From positions 62,001-126,000 of the forward strand of contig CAIUWA010000011.1 in the NCBI GenBank assembly GCA_903902745.1: 64,000 nucleotides of DNA, read 5' to 3'. Shown in pieces: positions 2,790-60,077 of this stretch. Under the pieces are notes generated by a model, which worked only from the letters and a program-made list of their open reading frames with translations, did not search any database and was not told where the DNA came from. Each line of letters begins with the position of its first letter. The stretch's first letter is position 1. The translations under genes and the position numbers were made by a program. The DNA is from an uncultured Opitutia bacterium (lineage in GTDB: Bacteria > Verrucomicrobiota > Verrucomicrobiia > Opitutales > Opitutaceae).

Positions 2790-3736
2790 ACGTCGAAGTA
2801 GTAGAAGAACCGCGGGAGGGTCCCGACCTCCTCCTTGAGCACGAAGACCCGCTTGTGCTTCAGGATGTAGGAGACCTCGCTGTCGGGATCGAGGATGTTG
2901 CCGAACTTGCGCGCGCCCGTCGGGCAGACCTCGAGGCACGCCGGGTAGCGGCCGGCGCGGGTGCGCTGGATGCAGAAGTGGCACTTCTCCATCACGCCCT
3001 TGTGCCGCGGCCGGTTGCCGAGATACGACATGTTGGGATTCAGCTTCTCCGACGGGATGGAGGGCTCGGTGAAATTGAAGCGGCGGGCAAAGTAGGGGCA
3101 GGCGGCCTCGCAATACCGGCAGCCGATGCACCAGTTATAGTCGATGACCGTGATGCCGTCGGGCTCCTGCCAGGTCGCCTTCACGGGGCAGACCTTCACG
3201 CAGGGCGGGTTTTTGCACTGGTGGCACTGCACCGGCATGTAGAAGAAGCCCGGCTCGGGCACGGACTCCGGCGCGTAGTTGTGGTCGCCCTTCTCCATGT
3301 CGAAGGTGCCGTTGGGCATCTTCAGGACGCGGATGTACTCGAGGCCCGGATCGCGCGACTGGTTGTTCTCGGCGACGCAGGCGTGGACGCATTTGCGGCA
3401 GCCGGTGCAGCGGGTGAGGTTGAGCGCGTAGACAAACTCGACGCCGTTCATCGGCTTGAAGTCGCGGACGTGCGGCCGCACGCCGTATTGCCGCTGCACC
3501 TCGCGCTCCATGCGCTCGAGAATTACCTTCATCTGCTCCGGCTTCAGCTCCGAGTAGTGCATCTGGAGGAATTCATCGACCGAGCCGTAGTCGCTCAGCT
3601 TCCGCAGCGGCGCGAGGCCGGCGGCCATGGCGGCGACGCCGGCGGCCATGACGGTCGAGCCGCGCAGAAAACTGCGGCGGCTCATCGAGCGGGGTTCGGA
3701 AGGCGGGGCGGCGCCGTCGGGCGGTGAGGTGGTCAT
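2786..3736 (-). CDS. Tat-exported 4x[4Fe-4S] ferredoxin-type subunit (NrfC/HmcB/DsrO-like)
   Basis: A 316-residue periplasmic electron-transfer subunit. The twin-arginine signal SRRSFLRG sits at about residues 19-26 and is followed by an Ala-rich hydrophobic stretch. Four cysteine groups for four [4Fe-4S] clusters are visible: CTGCRKCVHAC, CHQCKNPPCVKVCP, CIGCRYCEAACP and the split group CHFC...CLEVCP. This is the usual partner of the NrfD-like membrane subunit, whose start codon overlaps this gene's stop. The ATG at 3736 lies one base after the TGA of the pentaheme gene. The three genes thus form a tight operon for a quinone/Fe-S/heme complex on the periplasmic face. The Tat route is consistent with the tatA gene at 52811. 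Confidence 0.92.
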   Translation of the reverse strand: MTTSPPDGAAPPSEPRSMSRRSFLRGSTVMAAGVAAMAAGLAPLRKLSDYGSVDEFLQMHYSELKPEQMKVILERMEREVQRQYGVRPHVRDFKPMNGVEFVYALNLTRCTGCRKCVHACVAENNQSRDPGLEYIRVLKMPNGTFDMEKGDHNYAPESVPEPGFFYMPVQCHQCKNPPCVKVCPVKATWQEPDGITVIDYNWCIGCRYCEAACPYFARRFNFTEPSIPSEKLNPNMSYLGNRPRHKGVMEKCHFCIQRTRAGRYPACLEVCPTGARKFGNILDPDSEVSYILKHKRVFVLKEEVGTLPRFFYYFDV

Positions 3737-3737
3737 G

Positions 3738-4490
3738 TCAGTGGGCAGAGGGAGGAGGGAGCGTCGCGGGGGCGACCGGGTGCATGGGACGGGGGCCGGG
3801 CAAAGGAATGAGCTGGGGGAAGGCGGGCGCGTGCGGATCGTGGCACGAGGCGCATTCCTCGCGGGTGATGGGGCCCTTGCTGCGGTCCCAATAGCCGGAG
3901 GTCCGGCCGTGCACGCCGGCTTCCCAGTCGCGGAAGGTCGGACCGTGGCAGCTGGCGCAGAGGGCGGTCGCCTGGTCGAATTTCAAGTGCAGGCCCTCGC
4001 GGGTGACGAGCTCGTTGAGCTTCGCGGGATTGTGGCAGTTGAAACAATTGTCGTTCCGGTTGTTCCGGCCGTGCGCCATCACGAGCAAGTCCTGGTGGGC
4101 CTTGGGCATGATGACCGCGCCGTCGGCGGCGTATTCCAGCTTCACGGGCTGATCCGTGCCATGGCACGACTCGCAGTTGCGCATCGAGATGATAAGGTCG
4201 GCGTGCTCCTTGGGGAAAACCAGCCGGTGCGCGGCGTCGTACTTCAACTCGGGGGGCTTCTTCTCGTCATGGCAGGTGTAGCACTCGAGGCCGGAGGCGT
4301 CGCCCCCGCTCTTGACCAGCTGGGCGGCGGAGATGCGAATCGTGGTGGGCTTGGGCGCGGTGATGCCGGGGAAGGGGGTCTTCGCGGCGGTCGGCGGGCG
4401 CGAGCTGACATAGAAGACGACGGCCAAGGCGAGAAACCCGGCGGTGAGGCCGGCCAGCGCGCGGGTGGTTTTCTTCGATTCGTCGCTCAT
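3738..4490 (-). CDS. Membrane-anchored pentaheme c-type cytochrome
   Basis: A 250-residue cytochrome with one N-terminal membrane anchor (about residues 11-29) and a periplasmic domain with five CXXCH motifs: C70-H74, C106-H110, C149-H153, C178-H182 and C213-H217, followed by a Pro-rich tail. It is the first gene of the minus-strand operon, so it probably accepts electrons from the Fe-S/NrfD pair or passes them to it, and links them to periplasmic cytochromes. The ATG at 4490 (MSDESKK) was preferred because it gives a standard anchor; frames upstream of it are low in coding character and hold the putative operators. It is not a clear NapC/NrfH family member by motif layout. Confidence 0.88.
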   Translation of the reverse strand: MSDESKKTTRALAGLTAGFLALAVVFYVSSRPPTAAKTPFPGITAPKPTTIRISAAQLVKSGGDASGLECYTCHDEKKPPELKYDAAHRLVFPKEHADLIISMRNCESCHGTDQPVKLEYAADGAVIMPKAHQDLLVMAHGRNNRNDNCFNCHNPAKLNELVTREGLHLKFDQATALCASCHGPTFRDWEAGVHGRTSGYWDRSKGPITREECASCHDPHAPAFPQLIPLPGPRPMHPVAPATLPPPSAH

Positions 4491-4549
4491 GCAGTGGAGC
4501 AAGACTAGCAAGATCGGGAAAGCGGGGCGCTCCATCGCTTGGCCAACCC

Positions 4550-4616
4550 TGCGCATATCTTGCACAGGGGCTCCGGGACAAGAAATGCGCAGTAATGCGC
4601 AAGCGGCGCATTGCGG
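4550..4616. promoter_or_regulatory. Inverted operator-like sites in the divergent cytochrome promoter region
   Basis: TGCGCATATCTTG (4550-4562) and CAAGAAATGCGCA (4579-4591) are inverted copies matching at 12 of 13 positions, 16 bases apart. A second perfect small palindrome, AATGCGC/GCGCATT, follows at 4594-4612. The sites lie between the pentaheme start (4490) and the monoheme start (4672), where a regulator could act on both directions. The same 13-mer recurs twice at 5078-5111. The regulator is unknown. Confidence 0.55.
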
Positions 4617-4671
4617 AGTCGGGGGAGGTGTGGCACGCTGAGGCGAAACCTGCCACCTTAGCCTACACTCC

Positions 4672-5001
4672 ATGAAAAAACTCCTCCTCGCCGCCGTCTC
4701 GATCATCGCTCTCACCGCCTGGGCCCGCGCCGCGGACGCCCCGGAGAACTGGGACAAGAACTGCGCGGCCTGCCACGCCAAGGACGGCAAGGGCGCGACC
4801 AAGGCCGGGCGCATGGCCGGCGTGAAGGATTTCGCCGACGCGGCCTATCAGAAGACCTTCACGGACGACCAAGCCATCGCGAGCGTGAAAGACGGCAAGA
4901 AGGACGACAAGGGCAAGGAGAAGATGAAGCCCTTTGCCGAGAAGCTCACGGACGACGAAATCAAGGCGCTGGTCGCCTACGTCCGCACCCTCGCGAAATA
5001 A
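4672..5001 (+). CDS. Small periplasmic monoheme cytochrome c
   Basis: A 109-residue class I-like cytochrome c. A clear signal peptide (MKKLLLAAVSIIALTAWARA) is followed by one heme motif, CAACH, near residue 32, and a C-terminal helix of the type LTDDEIKALVAYVRTLAK that is standard in small mono-heme cytochromes. A single Met in the GRMAG or KMKP stretches could be the sixth ligand. It is likely a soluble periplasmic shuttle between the inner-membrane pentaheme/Fe-S/NrfD complex encoded divergently and the MtrA-like cytochrome encoded downstream. It is followed by a good intrinsic terminator, so it may form its own transcript. Confidence 0.9.
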   Translation: MKKLLLAAVSIIALTAWARAADAPENWDKNCAACHAKDGKGATKAGRMAGVKDFADAAYQKTFTDDQAIASVKDGKKDDKGKEKMKPFAEKLTDDEIKALVAYVRTLAK

Positions 5002-50270: not shown

Positions 50271-52571
50271 ATGCACGGCATCGACTTCATCCAGGATCTG
50301 GCGGTGATTCTCACCGTGGCCGCGGCGGTGGGCTGGGCGTGCCAGCGCATCGGCCTGTCGGTGGTGGTGGGCTTTCTCGTGGCGGGCATCGTGGTGGGCC
50401 CGCACACGCCGCCGTTTTCGCTGGTGACGGATCCCGACCGCATCGACACGGCGGCACAGGTGGGCCTCGTTTTCCTGATGTTCGGCATCGGCCTGCGCCT
50501 GAGCGTGCGGAAGTTGCGCCGGCTCGGGCCCGCGCTGCTCGCGGCGGTCTTCGCCTCGGCCCTCGTGATGTATTTTCTTTCCCGCCTGCTCGGGCTGGCC
50601 CTCGGCTGGAGCAACCCGGAAAGTCTCTTTCTCGCGGGCATGCTGATGATTTCGTCGTCGGCCATCATCAGCAAGATCCTCCATGAAACCGGCGCGACGC
50701 ACGAGCGCTCGGGCCAGCTGGCCATGGGGGTGTCGGTGCTGGAGGACGTCGTGGCCGTCGTGATGCTGACGCTGCTCAACTCGATCGTGCAGTTCGGCGG
50801 CGCGGCCCACGGCGTGCCGGTGATGGAGACACTGGGAAAGCTGGGGGCCTTCATCGTGCTGGCGGGCGTGGCGGGGCTGCTGGTGGTGCCCTGGCTGCTC
50901 AAGCGGATGAGCATCTCGGCCGACGGGGAATTGCAGACGCTCGGGCTGGCGGGCCTGCTCTTCGCGCTGGCGCTGGTGGCGCAGCGCGCGGGGTATTCGC
51001 TGGCGCTGGGCGCATTCCTCCTCGGCACGATCGTGGCGGAAACACCGCACCGGACGCAGGTCGAGCGGACCTTCGAGGGCATGCGCGACGTGTTCAGCGC
51101 GGTGTTTTTCGTGGCGATCGGCATGCAGATCGACCTGCACCTCCTGTGGGAGGCGGGCTGGCTGATCATCGGGGTGGCGGCATTCACCTTTCTCGCGCGC
51201 ACGCTGGCGGCCACGACCGGTCTCACCCTCATCGGCACGCCCACGAAGGATGCGTTGCGCGCCGGGATGGCGGTGACACCCATCGGCGAGTTCTCCTTCA
51301 TCATCGCGCAGCTTGGCGTGACACACGAAGTGGTGCCGCCGAAATTTTATCCCCTGGCGGTCGGGGTGTCGCTGCTGACGACTCTCGGCGCCCCCGCGTT
51401 GACGCGGCGTTCGGAACAGATCGCCGACGCCGTGCTCGTCCGCCAGCCGCGCTGGCTCGAAACGTGTCTGCAGTATTATCAGAACTGGCTCGAGCGCATC
51501 CAGCGCCGGCAGTCGCGCAACCTCCTCTGGCAGCTCAGCCGCAAGCGCATCGTGCAGGTGGGCGTGGGCGTGCTGTTCGTGACCGGGCTGGTGGTGTTTT
51601 CCAAGCAGCTCTTCGCCCTCGTCGAGGGCTGGCTGGGCCGGGACTGGCTTTTCCCCCACGGGATCGAGGTGATTTTCTGGGCGGCACTGGTCCTGATGAC
51701 GCTGGCGCCGCTGGTCGCCATCTGGCGCAACCTCTCGGCGATGGCGCTGCTCTACGCCGAGGTTTCCACCAAGGGCCATGCGCGGCAAAAAACCCTGCGC
51801 CCGATCGTGGAAACGAGCCTCAAGCTCGCGGCCGGCGTGGCCTTGTTCATGTGGCTCCTGACCATCCTGCCCGATGAAAGCACCGCGAAATGGCTGCTGC
51901 TGTTGAGCGGGCTGTTTGCGGCGGTCGCGCTGTTCGTTTTGCGCCGCAAGCTCATCTACTGGCACAGTGAGCTCGAGGTGGAGTTGCAGGAAATGCTGGC
52001 GACGGAGACCAAGATGACTGCGACGACCGCACCCTGGCTGCGCCCGCATGAGGACTGGAACCTGCACATCGCCGACTGTCTGCTGCCCGACCTGGCCGAT
52101 TGCCAGGGCCGGAAAATTTCCGAGCTCGGTCTCCGCACCAAGTTCGGCTGCTCCGTGGTGGGCATCGAGCGTCAGGGATTCATGATCTCTCTGCCCACGC
52201 CGGAAACGGTGCTCTACCCGCGCGACAAGGTGCTGCTCATGGGCACTATTGAACAAGTCCAGGGAGGGAAGAAATTCCTCGGGGCGGTCTCGGGCACGCC
52301 GGCGGCGATCTCAGTGTTCGAGGAGGTGAGCATGGAGGCCCTGATGGTGCCGCTCTGGAGCCGGGCCGTCCGCCGGACCCTGGGCGAGATTGCGCCCATG
52401 AAGGCGCATGGCGTGCTGGTAGCGGGGATCAACCGCAGTGGCGTGCGCATCCTCAATCCGCGGGCGGAGGAAGTGCTGCAGGCGGGCGATGAAGTGCTGG
52501 CGCTGGGCACCCCCGCGCAGATCCGTGACTTCAAGGCCTGGTTGCGCGAGGAACCGGCGGCGGAGGGGTAG
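50271..52571 (+). CDS. CPA2 cation:proton antiporter with RCK-C domains (KefB/RosB type)
   Basis: A 766-residue inner-membrane transporter. The N-terminal ~380 residues form the Na+/H+ exchanger fold with about twelve helices; family marks are VVGFLVAGIVVGPHTPP, QVGLVFLMFGIGLRLS and SSSAIISKILHE. A second set of hydrophobic helices (about residues 425-560) is followed by two RCK-C-like domains: GCSVVGIERQGFMISLPTPE and SGVRILNPRAEEVLQAGDEV. There is no Rossmann RCK-N domain, so NAD gating as in Kef is not expected. It probably exports K+ or Na+ under nucleotide or ligand control; in the c-di-AMP context RCK-C domains are known ligand sites, and a cyclase fusion is encoded at 58722. That link is inference. 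Confidence 0.9.
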   Translation: MHGIDFIQDLAVILTVAAAVGWACQRIGLSVVVGFLVAGIVVGPHTPPFSLVTDPDRIDTAAQVGLVFLMFGIGLRLSVRKLRRLGPALLAAVFASALVMYFLSRLLGLALGWSNPESLFLAGMLMISSSAIISKILHETGATHERSGQLAMGVSVLEDVVAVVMLTLLNSIVQFGGAAHGVPVMETLGKLGAFIVLAGVAGLLVVPWLLKRMSISADGELQTLGLAGLLFALALVAQRAGYSLALGAFLLGTIVAETPHRTQVERTFEGMRDVFSAVFFVAIGMQIDLHLLWEAGWLIIGVAAFTFLARTLAATTGLTLIGTPTKDALRAGMAVTPIGEFSFIIAQLGVTHEVVPPKFYPLAVGVSLLTTLGAPALTRRSEQIADAVLVRQPRWLETCLQYYQNWLERIQRRQSRNLLWQLSRKRIVQVGVGVLFVTGLVVFSKQLFALVEGWLGRDWLFPHGIEVIFWAALVLMTLAPLVAIWRNLSAMALLYAEVSTKGHARQKTLRPIVETSLKLAAGVALFMWLLTILPDESTAKWLLLLSGLFAAVALFVLRRKLIYWHSELEVELQEMLATETKMTATTAPWLRPHEDWNLHIADCLLPDLADCQGRKISELGLRTKFGCSVVGIERQGFMISLPTPETVLYPRDKVLLMGTIEQVQGGKKFLGAVSGTPAAISVFEEVSMEALMVPLWSRAVRRTLGEIAPMKAHGVLVAGINRSGVRILNPRAEEVLQAGDEVLALGTPAQIRDFKAWLREEPAAEG

Positions 52572-56918: not shown

Positions 56919-57079
56919 GGGAAGGGAGGGCGGGGCGGAACGACACCTCTCTACCCAAGGGCGGGGAAATGGCACCACAGCGCGCGCGACGAAGAATGCA
57001 CTTTCCCCCCGGACTGCGCCCTGTCAAGTTTCGTGGCTCCCCGGCGAAACATTCGCCCGTTTTGGGCGACTCACCTACC

Positions 57080-58147
57080 ATGCGTTTTTTCCCGATCCCG
57101 GTTCTATCCCTCTTCCTGCTTGCCGCCGCCAGCCCCGGCCGGGCGGAGCTGCCCCCGCTGCTGAAGGCCGGCGTTACTTCCGCGCCAGCCGCCCCCGCGA
57201 AGGAGATCGTCTGGGAGGCGTCGCTGCAGAATTTCGACACCCCCATCTACGAGCGCGAGGTGGAAAAACTCATCACCCAGTTCGAGGCCACCACTGGCCG
57301 CCACCTCGTGCCCGGCCCCAAGAAAAAGGTCGGGCTCAAGATCTACACCGACTCGGGCCCGGGCGTGGCCACCCCCAAGGCGCTGGTCAAGGCCGTGATC
57401 GCCTCGCTCGAGCGGCGTGGTTTTGAACCCGGGGGCATCTTTCTCGTCGGCCTCAACCAGCTGCGCCTGCGCATGACTGGCTATCTGCCCTCGCTCGTGA
57501 AGGGCGAGTCCGACTTCAAGGGCCATCCGATCTACGTGCTGGAGTCGGGCCGGTACTACGATCCGGTGTGGTTTTATGACAGCCCGCTGCCGCAGCGCTT
57601 CGACCCGATTTTTGCCGAGACGCAGGTCCGCGACGTGCCCAACACCTCGACGAAAGACGAGGACCGCAACAGCTACCTCGCCACGCCGCTCTTCCTGGAC
57701 GCTGATTTCTGGATCAACCTGCCGGTTTACACCGATCACCCGATCCTCGGCGTGAACGGTTCGCTCGTGAATGCCACGCTCTGGAATGCCTCGAACACCT
57801 CGCGCTTTTTCCGCAGCCCCGCCAGCGCCCCTGCCGCAGTCGCCGAGATGAGCGCCATCCCCGAGCTGCGCGCGACCTGGGTCTTCACCATTGTCAGCCT
57901 CGAGCGCTACCAGTTCATCGGCGGGCCGTACTTCAATTCACTCTATACCGTCTCGGAGCCCCTCGTCTGGCTCAGCACCGATCCCGTGATGCTCGACTCG
58001 CTCATGCTCGAGCGCATGAACAAATGGCGGCAGCGAACCGGTTTCCAGCCTGTATCCGATGAGATCCAGACGCTCCAGTTTGCCGAGCAGCTCGGTGTGG
58101 GTTCGACGAAAACCGGTTCCGTGAAGATGATCCACCTCGGCGACTGA
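57080..58147 (+). CDS. Secreted protein of unknown function (possible DUF362-like)
   Basis: A 355-residue exported protein with a signal peptide (MRFFPIPVLSLFLLAAASPG). The region KIYTDSGPGVATPKALVKAV and RRGFEPGGIFLVG recalls DUF362-type proteins, which pick up a conserved 'prepare and bind' pattern, but their Fe-S Cys residues are missing. The second half (LFLDADFWINLPVYTDHPIL, LGVNGSLVNATLWN, GGPYFNSLYTVSEP) fits the same family. The ATG at 57080 provides the signal peptide. It is divergent from dnaG. I cannot give a biochemical role. Confidence 0.75.
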   Translation: MRFFPIPVLSLFLLAAASPGRAELPPLLKAGVTSAPAAPAKEIVWEASLQNFDTPIYEREVEKLITQFEATTGRHLVPGPKKKVGLKIYTDSGPGVATPKALVKAVIASLERRGFEPGGIFLVGLNQLRLRMTGYLPSLVKGESDFKGHPIYVLESGRYYDPVWFYDSPLPQRFDPIFAETQVRDVPNTSTKDEDRNSYLATPLFLDADFWINLPVYTDHPILGVNGSLVNATLWNASNTSRFFRSPASAPAAVAEMSAIPELRATWVFTIVSLERYQFIGGPYFNSLYTVSEPLVWLSTDPVMLDSLMLERMNKWRQRTGFQPVSDEIQTLQFAEQLGVGSTKTGSVKMIHLGD

Positions 58148-58208: not shown

Positions 58209-58583
58209 ATGACGTCCGCCGCGTATCTTCCCTTCCTAATCCAGGCCCTGCTCGCCGCCGGCGTCGGCGCGCTCATCGTCGGCGTGAGCCATCTGCTGGG
58301 GCAGCGCGCGAAGCATACGAAGATCAAGGACAGCGCCTACGAGTGCGGCGTGCCGGTGGAGGGCGTGATCCACACGCGCTTCTCCGTGAAGTTCTACCTC
58401 ACGGCGCTGCTTTTCATGCTCTTCGACCTTGAGGTCGTCATCCTCATCCCGTGGAGCTTCGTCTACCGCGACTTTCTCGCCCACCACATCGCAATCCTCG
58501 GCCCCATCATGTTCTTCATCGGCGTGCTCGTGCTCGGGCTGTTCTACGAGGTGAAGAAGGGCGCGCTGGAGTGGGAAAAATAA
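58209..58583 (+). CDS. nuoA: NADH-quinone oxidoreductase subunit A
   Basis: A 124-residue membrane subunit of respiratory complex I with three helices. The conserved segment KDSAYECGVPV carries the family Cys, and FSVKFYLTALLFMLFDLEVVILIPW is the typical second helix with its acidic residue. Start and length are standard. Unusually, no nuoB or other nuo gene follows; the next gene, after a hairpin-type gap, encodes the cyclase fusion. It could be a second nuoA copy or a nuo operon split by rearrangement. Confidence 0.95.
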   Translation: MTSAAYLPFLIQALLAAGVGALIVGVSHLLGQRAKHTKIKDSAYECGVPVEGVIHTRFSVKFYLTALLFMLFDLEVVILIPWSFVYRDFLAHHIAILGPIMFFIGVLVLGLFYEVKKGALEWEK

Positions 58584-58604
58584 CGGCCGCGCCCTGGCGC
58601 GGCA

Positions 58605-58718
58605 AATCACAAACGCCAAACCTCCAAATTCCAAAGCAGTCCAACCAACTGGAACCACGCGGGTGATTGGCCCCGGGTATTTTTTGGCGTTTGGGTTTTT
58701 GGGATTTGGGATTTTCAA
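58605..58718. repeat. Word-type imperfect hairpin between nuoA and the cyclase-fusion gene
   Basis: Words caaacgccaaacctccaaat (58610 on) face their inverse tttggcgtttgggtttttggg (58683-58703). Arms are about 30 bases with mismatches; the middle contains gaaccacgcgggtgattgg. Confidence 0.75.
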
Positions 58719-58721
58719 TTC

Positions 58722-60077
58722 ATGCGTCTCGACAAAATCATCGCCCGGAGCCGCATCATTGATTTGCGCAGCTCCGACCTGAAGGGCGCGCTCGAGGAAT
58801 TGCTGGAGGTGTCCGCGGCCAAGTTTCCCGACCTGAAGCAGGATGTCCTCCTGCGCGGCCTGCTCGCGCGCGAGAGCACGATGACCACCTATCTCGGCTT
58901 CGGCGTCGCGCTGCCGCACGTGCGGGTGAAGATGAGCCGCCGTTACATCCTCGCCATCGGGCGCACGCGCGTCGGCATCCGGCACGACGGGGCGAAGGAT
59001 GACGAGCCGGTCCGCCTCATCTTCATGCTCATCGCGGATGAGAAGGCGCGCGACTACCTTCAGGTGCTCGCCTCCATCGCCCGGCTGGTGAACGAGCCCG
59101 CCTTCGTGGACGACCTCGTCCATGCCCCCGGCCTCGACTCGATTTATGAGCGCCTCATCGGCGGCTTCACCGGCATCCGTCCGGTCCAGGCGCAGCAGAA
59201 CCGCGTCAACCGCCTCATGTTCCGCGAGGCGGAGCGCGTGGCCGGCGGCGCGAGCTGCGCCGCGATCATGGTATTCGGCGACACTTTTGTCGGCGGGATC
59301 GAGCCCGGGGTCATCCAGACCCGGACGAAGACGATCCTGGTCACGCGCAACCCGATTGAGGCGGGCGAGGGCCAGAAGGAGGAATTCACCGAGACGATCC
59401 AGGTGCGCTCGTTTTCCAACCAGCGCATGGCGCAACTGCGCAGCGCGATCCTCGTCGCGCTGACCCGCGGGATCGTGGCGTTCACCGATCGGGTCTGCTG
59501 CCTGGGCGGGCAGACGGGCAGCAACCAGTTCGACACCCTCGTGGTCGTCGACATCGAGCGCGAGTTCCAGACGTTGCTGACCGGCCACGCCGACCTCGTG
59601 CCGGAGGACGTGAAGCCCGAGGTGATCGAACGTGTGATCGCCGTCGCCACTGAGCTGGCTGTCGAGGGCCGGGAAGGCCGGCCCGTCGGCTGCCTTTTCG
59701 TCGTGGGTGACACCGAGAAGGTCGAGAAGCTCTCGAAGCCGCTCGTGCTCAATCCATTTTATGGCTACAAGGAGGAGGACCGGAACATCCTCAATCCCTT
59801 CATGGACGAGACGGTGAAGGAATTTTCTTCGATCGATGGGGCCTTCATCATCCGGGGTGACGGGGTGGTGGTTTCTGCCGGCAGCCTGATCCAGGCGACC
59901 GATTACGACCACGCGCTACCGAGCGGGTTGGGCAGCCGTCACGCCGCGGCCGCCGCGATCAGCGTGGCGACGCAGTGCATCTCGATCGTCGTTTCCTCCA
60001 GCACGGGCCAGGTGATGCTTTTCCGCCGGGGCGTCATGCTCCCATTGACGGACAAGAAGATGAGCATGAGTGGGTAG
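58722..60077 (+). CDS. PTS EIIA / PK_C-like / diadenylate cyclase fusion protein
   Basis: A 451-residue cytoplasmic protein. Residues 1-150 form a type-2 PTS EIIA-like domain with the phospho-acceptor candidate H66 in GVALPHVRV. Residues about 160-330 look like the pyruvate-kinase C-terminal-like domain found in archaeal DacZ (SCAAIMVFGDTFVGGIEPG). Residues 360-451 are a DisA_N-type diadenylate cyclase domain with D372-G-A and R406-H407-A408; the usual RHR motif is RHA here. Such cyclases make c-di-AMP from ATP. The EIIA domain suggests control by sugar supply or by nitrogen-PTS phosphorylation. Activity with RHA is uncertain. A stand-alone gene, preceded by a hairpin gap. Confidence 0.8.
   Translation: MRLDKIIARSRIIDLRSSDLKGALEELLEVSAAKFPDLKQDVLLRGLLARESTMTTYLGFGVALPHVRVKMSRRYILAIGRTRVGIRHDGAKDDEPVRLIFMLIADEKARDYLQVLASIARLVNEPAFVDDLVHAPGLDSIYERLIGGFTGIRPVQAQQNRVNRLMFREAERVAGGASCAAIMVFGDTFVGGIEPGVIQTRTKTILVTRNPIEAGEGQKEEFTETIQVRSFSNQRMAQLRSAILVALTRGIVAFTDRVCCLGGQTGSNQFDTLVVVDIEREFQTLLTGHADLVPEDVKPEVIERVIAVATELAVEGREGRPVGCLFVVGDTEKVEKLSKPLVLNPFYGYKEEDRNILNPFMDETVKEFSSIDGAFIIRGDGVVVSAGSLIQATDYDHALPSGLGSRHAAAAAISVATQCISIVVSSSTGQVMLFRRGVMLPLTDKKMSMSG

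Follow-up and report, generated by a model that had tools for sequence, protein, structure and literature searches.

A PTS EIIA domain fused to a DacZ-type diadenylate cyclase in Opitutales: predicted activity and possible control of c-di-AMP synthesis by the phosphorelay

Locus and domain architecture

The window, i.e., the whole stretch of 64,000 nucleotides analyzed here, carries a gene for a 451-residue protein in which a PTS EIIA domain, a DacZ-like middle domain, and a diadenylate cyclase (DAC) domain follow one another (Table 1). This three-domain reading, proposed by the initial annotation, is borne out by both Pfam and structure matches, with scores of 75.7 bits for PTS_EIIA_2 (E 4.7e-21; cut-off, 27), 97.5 bits for DacZ_P (E 5.7e-28; cut-off, 27.4), and 75.8 bits for the DAC domain (PF02457; E 2.7e-21; curated cut-off, 27). 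The residues it had singled out, namely, H66, D372-G-A, and R406-H-A, lie exactly at these positions in the translation and in the alignments.

Table 1. Features of the cyclase locus and of the nearby antiporter gene, in window coordinates
Feature	Position	Strand	Basis
CPA2-type cation:proton antiporter, two TrkA_C (RCK_C) domains	50271..52571	+	Pfam
nuoA, NADH-quinone oxidoreductase chain 3	58209..58583	+	Pfam; conserved gene directly upstream of the cyclase
EIIA-PK_C-DAC fusion, predicted diadenylate cyclase of DacD/DacZ type, 451 aa	58722..60077	+	Exact ORF, ATG start
PTS_EIIA_2 domain, aa 14-145, EIIA-Ntr fold	58761..59156	+	Pfam; Foldseek/VIA match to PtsN
H66, predicted EIIA phospho-acceptor His, ALPH motif	58917..58919	+	Alignments
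DacZ_P domain, aa 160-284, described in Pfam as "probable sensor"; pyruvate-kinase-C fold	59199..59573	+	Pfam; AF2 model and PDB search
DAC domain, aa 313-438	59658..60035	+	Pfam; structural matches to CdaA/DisA
DGA motif, D372-G373-A374	59835..59843	+	D and G invariant in aligned members
RHA motif, R406-H407-A408, DacZ-type form of RHR	59937..59945	+	R and H invariant

An AF2 model of the fusion built from 47 sequences reached a mean pLDDT of 88 and a pTM of 0.61, values at which the single predicted domains are reliable and the arrangement of EIIA relative to DAC is uncertain. Searching this model with Foldseek/VIA matched residues 1 to 152 to EIIA-Ntr structures (best Z, 21.9) and residues 291 to 446 to DisA and CdaA (Z of about 14 to 16), the latter being the superposition that the initial annotation had suggested as a check. 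Modeled by itself with AF2, the DacZ_P domain matched the C-terminal domain of pyruvate kinase in a PDB search, with a Z of 13 to 14 in all the matches listed, in agreement with the pyruvate-kinase-C fold predicted for archaeal DacZ (PMC6741144). A chance open reading frame, a frameshifted fusion, or a pseudogene was ruled out, since the fusion is present in 25/25 genomes of the family and in 16/18 others of the order, in nearly all cases at full length.

In 65 of 76 named loci, the gene directly upstream of the cyclase and on its strand is nuoA, the distance being almost always below 180 nt; the same arrangement holds in 20/20 genome stretches. Further upstream, a conserved 392-aa open reading frame without a Pfam match (positions 56969 to 58147; 45 to 76% identical in relatives) is likewise kept upstream of nuoA. 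A T/G-rich inverted repeat (TTTGGGATTTGGGATTT, 58698 to 58714) lies in the gap between nuoA and the cyclase (58600 to 58720), just 5' of the start codon; its chance expectation in the window is none.

The RHA motif and the class of the cyclase

The initial annotation had taken RHR as needed for a working DAC domain and RHA as an anomaly. Two alignments were read, the first with the fetched relatives and three CdaA references and the second with 47 sequences. In the 47-member alignment, D372, G373, R406, H407, and S425 are invariant, while A374 gives way now and then to G, C, or S. At position 408, the alignments show mostly Ala, with T, S, V, E, L, or N elsewhere and H in the haloarchaeal proteins. 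Among the 79 readable of 80 named DacZ-type loci, the motif reads RHA in 69, RHS in 5, RHV in 2, RHT in 2, RHE in 1, and RHR in 0, whereas the CdaA-type comparison set from the same phylum (the 30 best-scoring loci, 29 of them readable) has RHR in 29/29. Moreover, RHH occurs in two Haladaptatus (haloarchaeal) proteins that score above the NCBIfam DacZ equivalog cut-off. Haloferax volcanii DacZ makes c-di-AMP in vitro (PMC6741144), and we infer from the two Haladaptatus proteins standing in for it that its third residue is also non-Arg. Since the DacZ-type subfamily holds D, G, R, and H constant and leaves the third position free, RHA is, as judged from these alignments, the normal subfamily form and no sign of decay. 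The view of RHA as anomalous is thus not borne out by a subfamily that, in the sequences read, never has Arg at this position and keeps D, G, R, and H at 100%, and RHR should not be demanded before a DAC domain is called active. On this conservation, the fusion protein is very probably a catalytically active diadenylate cyclase.

None of the equivalog models reached its cut-off with the fusion, which scored 126.1 bits against DacZ (NF041371; cut-off, 430), 32.4 bits against CdaA (TIGR00159; cut-off, 188.8), and 21.3 bits against DisA (PRK13482; cut-off, 201). In a tree of DAC domains, the fusion falls in the DacZ-type group, apart from the CdaA group, with a support of 100/100; within the DacZ-type group, the branching is resolved only in part, and a single clade of EIIA fusions is not demonstrated. 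From these sequence comparisons, the fusion is of the DacZ/CdaZ type, related to but distinct from haloarchaeal DacZ. With this type (Haloferax volcanii DacZ and Methanocaldococcus jannaschii CdaZ), it has in common the PK_C-like and DAC domains, the retained DGA, an RHx whose third residue is other than Arg (RHH in the two Haladaptatus DacZ), and the grouping of the DAC domains in the tree; the haloarchaeal DacZ proteins read, however, have 268 aa without EIIA, compared to 451 aa with EIIA for the fusion. CdaA (DacA) and DisA share with it the DAC fold (the Z of about 14 to 16 given above), DGA, and the RH of RHR but carry RHR where the fusion has RHA. Their additional domains are an N-terminal membrane domain in CdaA and an HhH DNA-binding domain in DisA. 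As for EIIA-Ntr (PtsN), the 152 N-terminal residues of the fusion match it with the acceptor His kept, but PtsN is free-standing and has a second His, whereas the fusion has a Tyr there and a cyclase attached.

PMC6741144, which uses the classes of Corrigan and Gruendling (2013), gives Lacunisphaera limnophila, Puniceicoccaceae, Coraliomargarita, and Opitutae as members of class DacD, i.e., the same taxa as those in which the fusion is usually the only DAC. We take the fusion to be a probable member of DacD, an assignment made by matching taxa. The earlier statement that few cyclases with an EIIA domain are known is therefore right in part only, since Opitutales have the fusion as their standard DAC and the taxa match those of a named class. 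A literature search did not find experiments on an EIIA-DAC protein (activity, phosphorylation, or c-di-AMP level). The protein class DacD is known, and control of c-di-AMP synthesis by the PTS is a hypothesis open to test.

Genome content and distribution

A profile search of the 3.29-Mb, 98%-complete genome assembly found one DAC gene, the fusion, and no second DAC elsewhere; the fusion is very probably the only c-di-AMP synthase of this bacterium. The other components that the initial annotation had proposed to look for, namely, EI, HPr, and a c-di-AMP phosphodiesterase, are all encoded. EI has its three domains (Pfam), HPr carries H15- and S46-type motifs, HPrK/P is also present (Pfam), and there are three PTS_EIIA_2 proteins, including the fusion, while PTS_EIIC (PF02378) has no match in the genome. 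With this combination of EI, HPr, HPrK/P, and three EIIA proteins without a PTS_EIIC match, the PTS of this genome appears to be regulatory. Profile searches also identified a 7TM-7TMR_HD/HDIG protein as a PgpH-type HD phosphodiesterase. An NrnA/DhhP-like DHH-DHHA1 protein is encoded as well, and a GdpP-type phosphodiesterase was rejected, the three DHHA1 matches being RecJ, this NrnA/DhhP-like protein, and a frame resembling alanyl-tRNA synthetase by eye.

Concerning possible targets, the c-di-AMP riboswitch RF00379 was found neither in the genome nor in the 64-kb window. The only TrkA_C (RCK_C) matches in the genome are the two in the CPA2-type antiporter, and, in the K+/H+ antiporter CpaA, RCK_C is a c-di-AMP-binding domain (PMC10243994). 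By this analogy, the best candidate for a target is the CPA2 antiporter, a role that it may or may not turn out to have with about equal chances. Its gene lies about 7.5 to 9.6 kb upstream of the cyclase in 8/15 family stretches, a proximity that we set aside as general synteny and do not count as functional evidence.

Among 288 sampled Verrucomicrobiota genomes, 280 have a DAC and 46 have DacZ_P, the latter comprising 25/25 genomes of the window's family, 16/18 others of the order, and 5 elsewhere. Carriers of the fusion within the order have exactly one DAC in 39/41 cases, and the DacZ_P carriers outside the order have two in 5/5. The remaining sampled Verrucomicrobiota have, as a rule, one DAC, with RHR like CdaA wherever the 30 best-scoring fetched loci could be read. 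As far as these sequences go, this amounts to a swap within one phylum, in which Opitutales carry the fusion and most other sampled Verrucomicrobiota carry one other DAC, of CdaA type where read.

Named relatives are between 94% and about 35% identical to the fusion, the nearest being that of the uncultured Opitutae KR3_bin-0468 (94% identical), and belong to Opitutaceae, Opitutales, and Puniceicoccales, with the addition of one Chitinispirillaceae. The latter (Fibrobacterota; locus L136, 5001 to 6326) is an EIIA-DacZ-DAC fusion 36% identical to ours, with a Gln for the acceptor His. A second, EIIA-less DacZ-type cyclase occurs in one member of the order (genome G172; locus L048, 1932 to 2819) and weakly matches the anti-phage family DS2_3 (NF053872). 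Viral contigs yielded one weak relative only.

Possible control by the PTS

H66 lies in an ALPH motif. Every close member of the alignments has His there, as do most of the distant ones, and nearly all members retain E51 and the ALPH pocket together with H66 despite a wide divergence of the EIIA domain. In several divergent relatives, Ser, Tyr, Gln, or Thr stands in for the acceptor His, and EIIA phosphorylation is therefore not essential everywhere. Divergent EIIA-DAC proteins with Ser, Tyr, or Gln at this position were read at loci L046, L049, L120, L122, and L136. A second active-site His is found in mannitol and Ntr EIIA and is not strictly defining for the superfamily; in the alignment, Y112 stands where PtsN and mannitol EIIA have it, and both of the free EIIAs that the genome encodes have a Tyr there, too. 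HPr passes phosphate to PTS EIIA domains, and H66 is probably phosphorylated by the PTS, as its conservation suggests. That this phosphorylation controls the output of the cyclase is somewhat less assured but still favored. The hypothesis of PTS control of c-di-AMP, put forward by the initial annotation, is thus retained, given that EI, HPr, and HPrK are present and that nearly all members keep H66.

The main alternative is an active and sole cyclase that its EIIA domain has ceased to regulate by phosphorylation, the domain serving instead for structure or for protein binding, or working on other partners (e.g., K+ transporters) in the manner of EIIA-Ntr. The replacement of H66 in several divergent members, Y112 in place of the second active-site His, and the low inter-domain confidence of the AF2 model would all fit such a role. 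Nevertheless, the retention of H66, E51, and the ALPH pocket in nearly all members of a domain that has otherwise diverged widely argues against it, as does the presence of EI, HPr, and HPrK without a PTS_EIIC permease, which makes the EIIAs likely regulatory end points; we consider this alternative unlikely, at roughly one chance in several. Less probable still, at a level we would call doubtful, is that the main input is a ligand on the PK_C-like DacZ_P domain, with a minor part for EIIA. The modeled pyruvate kinase C-terminal fold of DacZ_P, the binding of allosteric effectors by that domain in pyruvate kinase (PMC6741144), and the occurrence of DacZ_P in the EIIA-less L048 protein speak for it, but the EIIA domain is kept in essentially all Opitutales members. 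As for a catalytically dead DAC domain turned c-di-AMP or ATP sensor, a possibility also raised by the initial annotation, RHA does depart from the textbook RHR and the RHR-to-AAA triple mutant of Mtb DisA is dead (PMC3328451), but that mutant has all three residues changed and does not probe the third alone, and with D, G, R, and H invariant across the family (the ground on which a dead cyclase, as drawn from RHA, was rejected), a non-Arg third residue as the subfamily norm up to haloarchaeal DacZ above the equivalog cut-off, no other DAC found in this genome or in 39/41 order carriers, and a PgpH-type phosphodiesterase encoded in this genome, this reading is highly improbable.

Altogether, the reading that we find the likelier is an active, sole DacZ/CdaZ-type cyclase (class DacD) whose output would be set by PTS phosphorylation and perhaps by a PK_C ligand. 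DAC domains work as head-to-head pairs. We propose a model in which two DAC domains of the fusion would pair head to head, with D372 (DGA) and R406-H407 acting with ATP, and in which phosphate would pass from PEP to EI, HPr, and H66 of EIIA through the regulatory PTS, the state of EIIA tracking the PEP:pyruvate ratio. Phosphorylation of H66 would then alter the pairing of the DAC domains or the access to them, and an effector bound by the PK_C-like middle domain may be a second input to c-di-AMP output. PgpH would break down c-di-AMP, and K+ transport would be what the messenger acts on, the RCK_C antiporter being the best candidate; the unit could in this way couple carbon and energy status to K+ and osmotic control. 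By a slight preference only, we favor the strong form of this model, in which the PEP-EI-HPr phosphorelay directly switches the cyclase, H66 gates c-di-AMP, and an order-wide K+/osmotic messenger would be a read-out of the PEP:pyruvate ratio.

c-di-AMP controls K+ in Firmicutes. In Proteobacteria, unphosphorylated EIIA-Ntr controls K+ systems, including KdpD (PMC9239096), and we regard the parallel with the fusion as no more than suggestive. If the model is true, the EIIA-Ntr logic of Proteobacteria and the c-di-AMP logic of Firmicutes, elsewhere two separate ways of controlling K+, would be joined in one polypeptide. For most cyclases, it is unclear which signal prompts c-di-AMP synthesis. 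In the fusion, the input would be visible in the protein itself, the sole cyclase carrying both a PTS domain predicted to be phosphorylatable and a PK_C domain of allosteric type. With the partner proteins identified (EI, HPr, HPrK, and the PgpH-type enzyme), PTS-controlled c-di-AMP synthesis becomes directly testable in vitro.

Beside the fusions, a free EIIA gene was observed at locus L142 (4793 to 5287; motif ALPHAR), adjoining a gene (2976 to 4793) that by eye resembles one for a ClC-type chloride channel.
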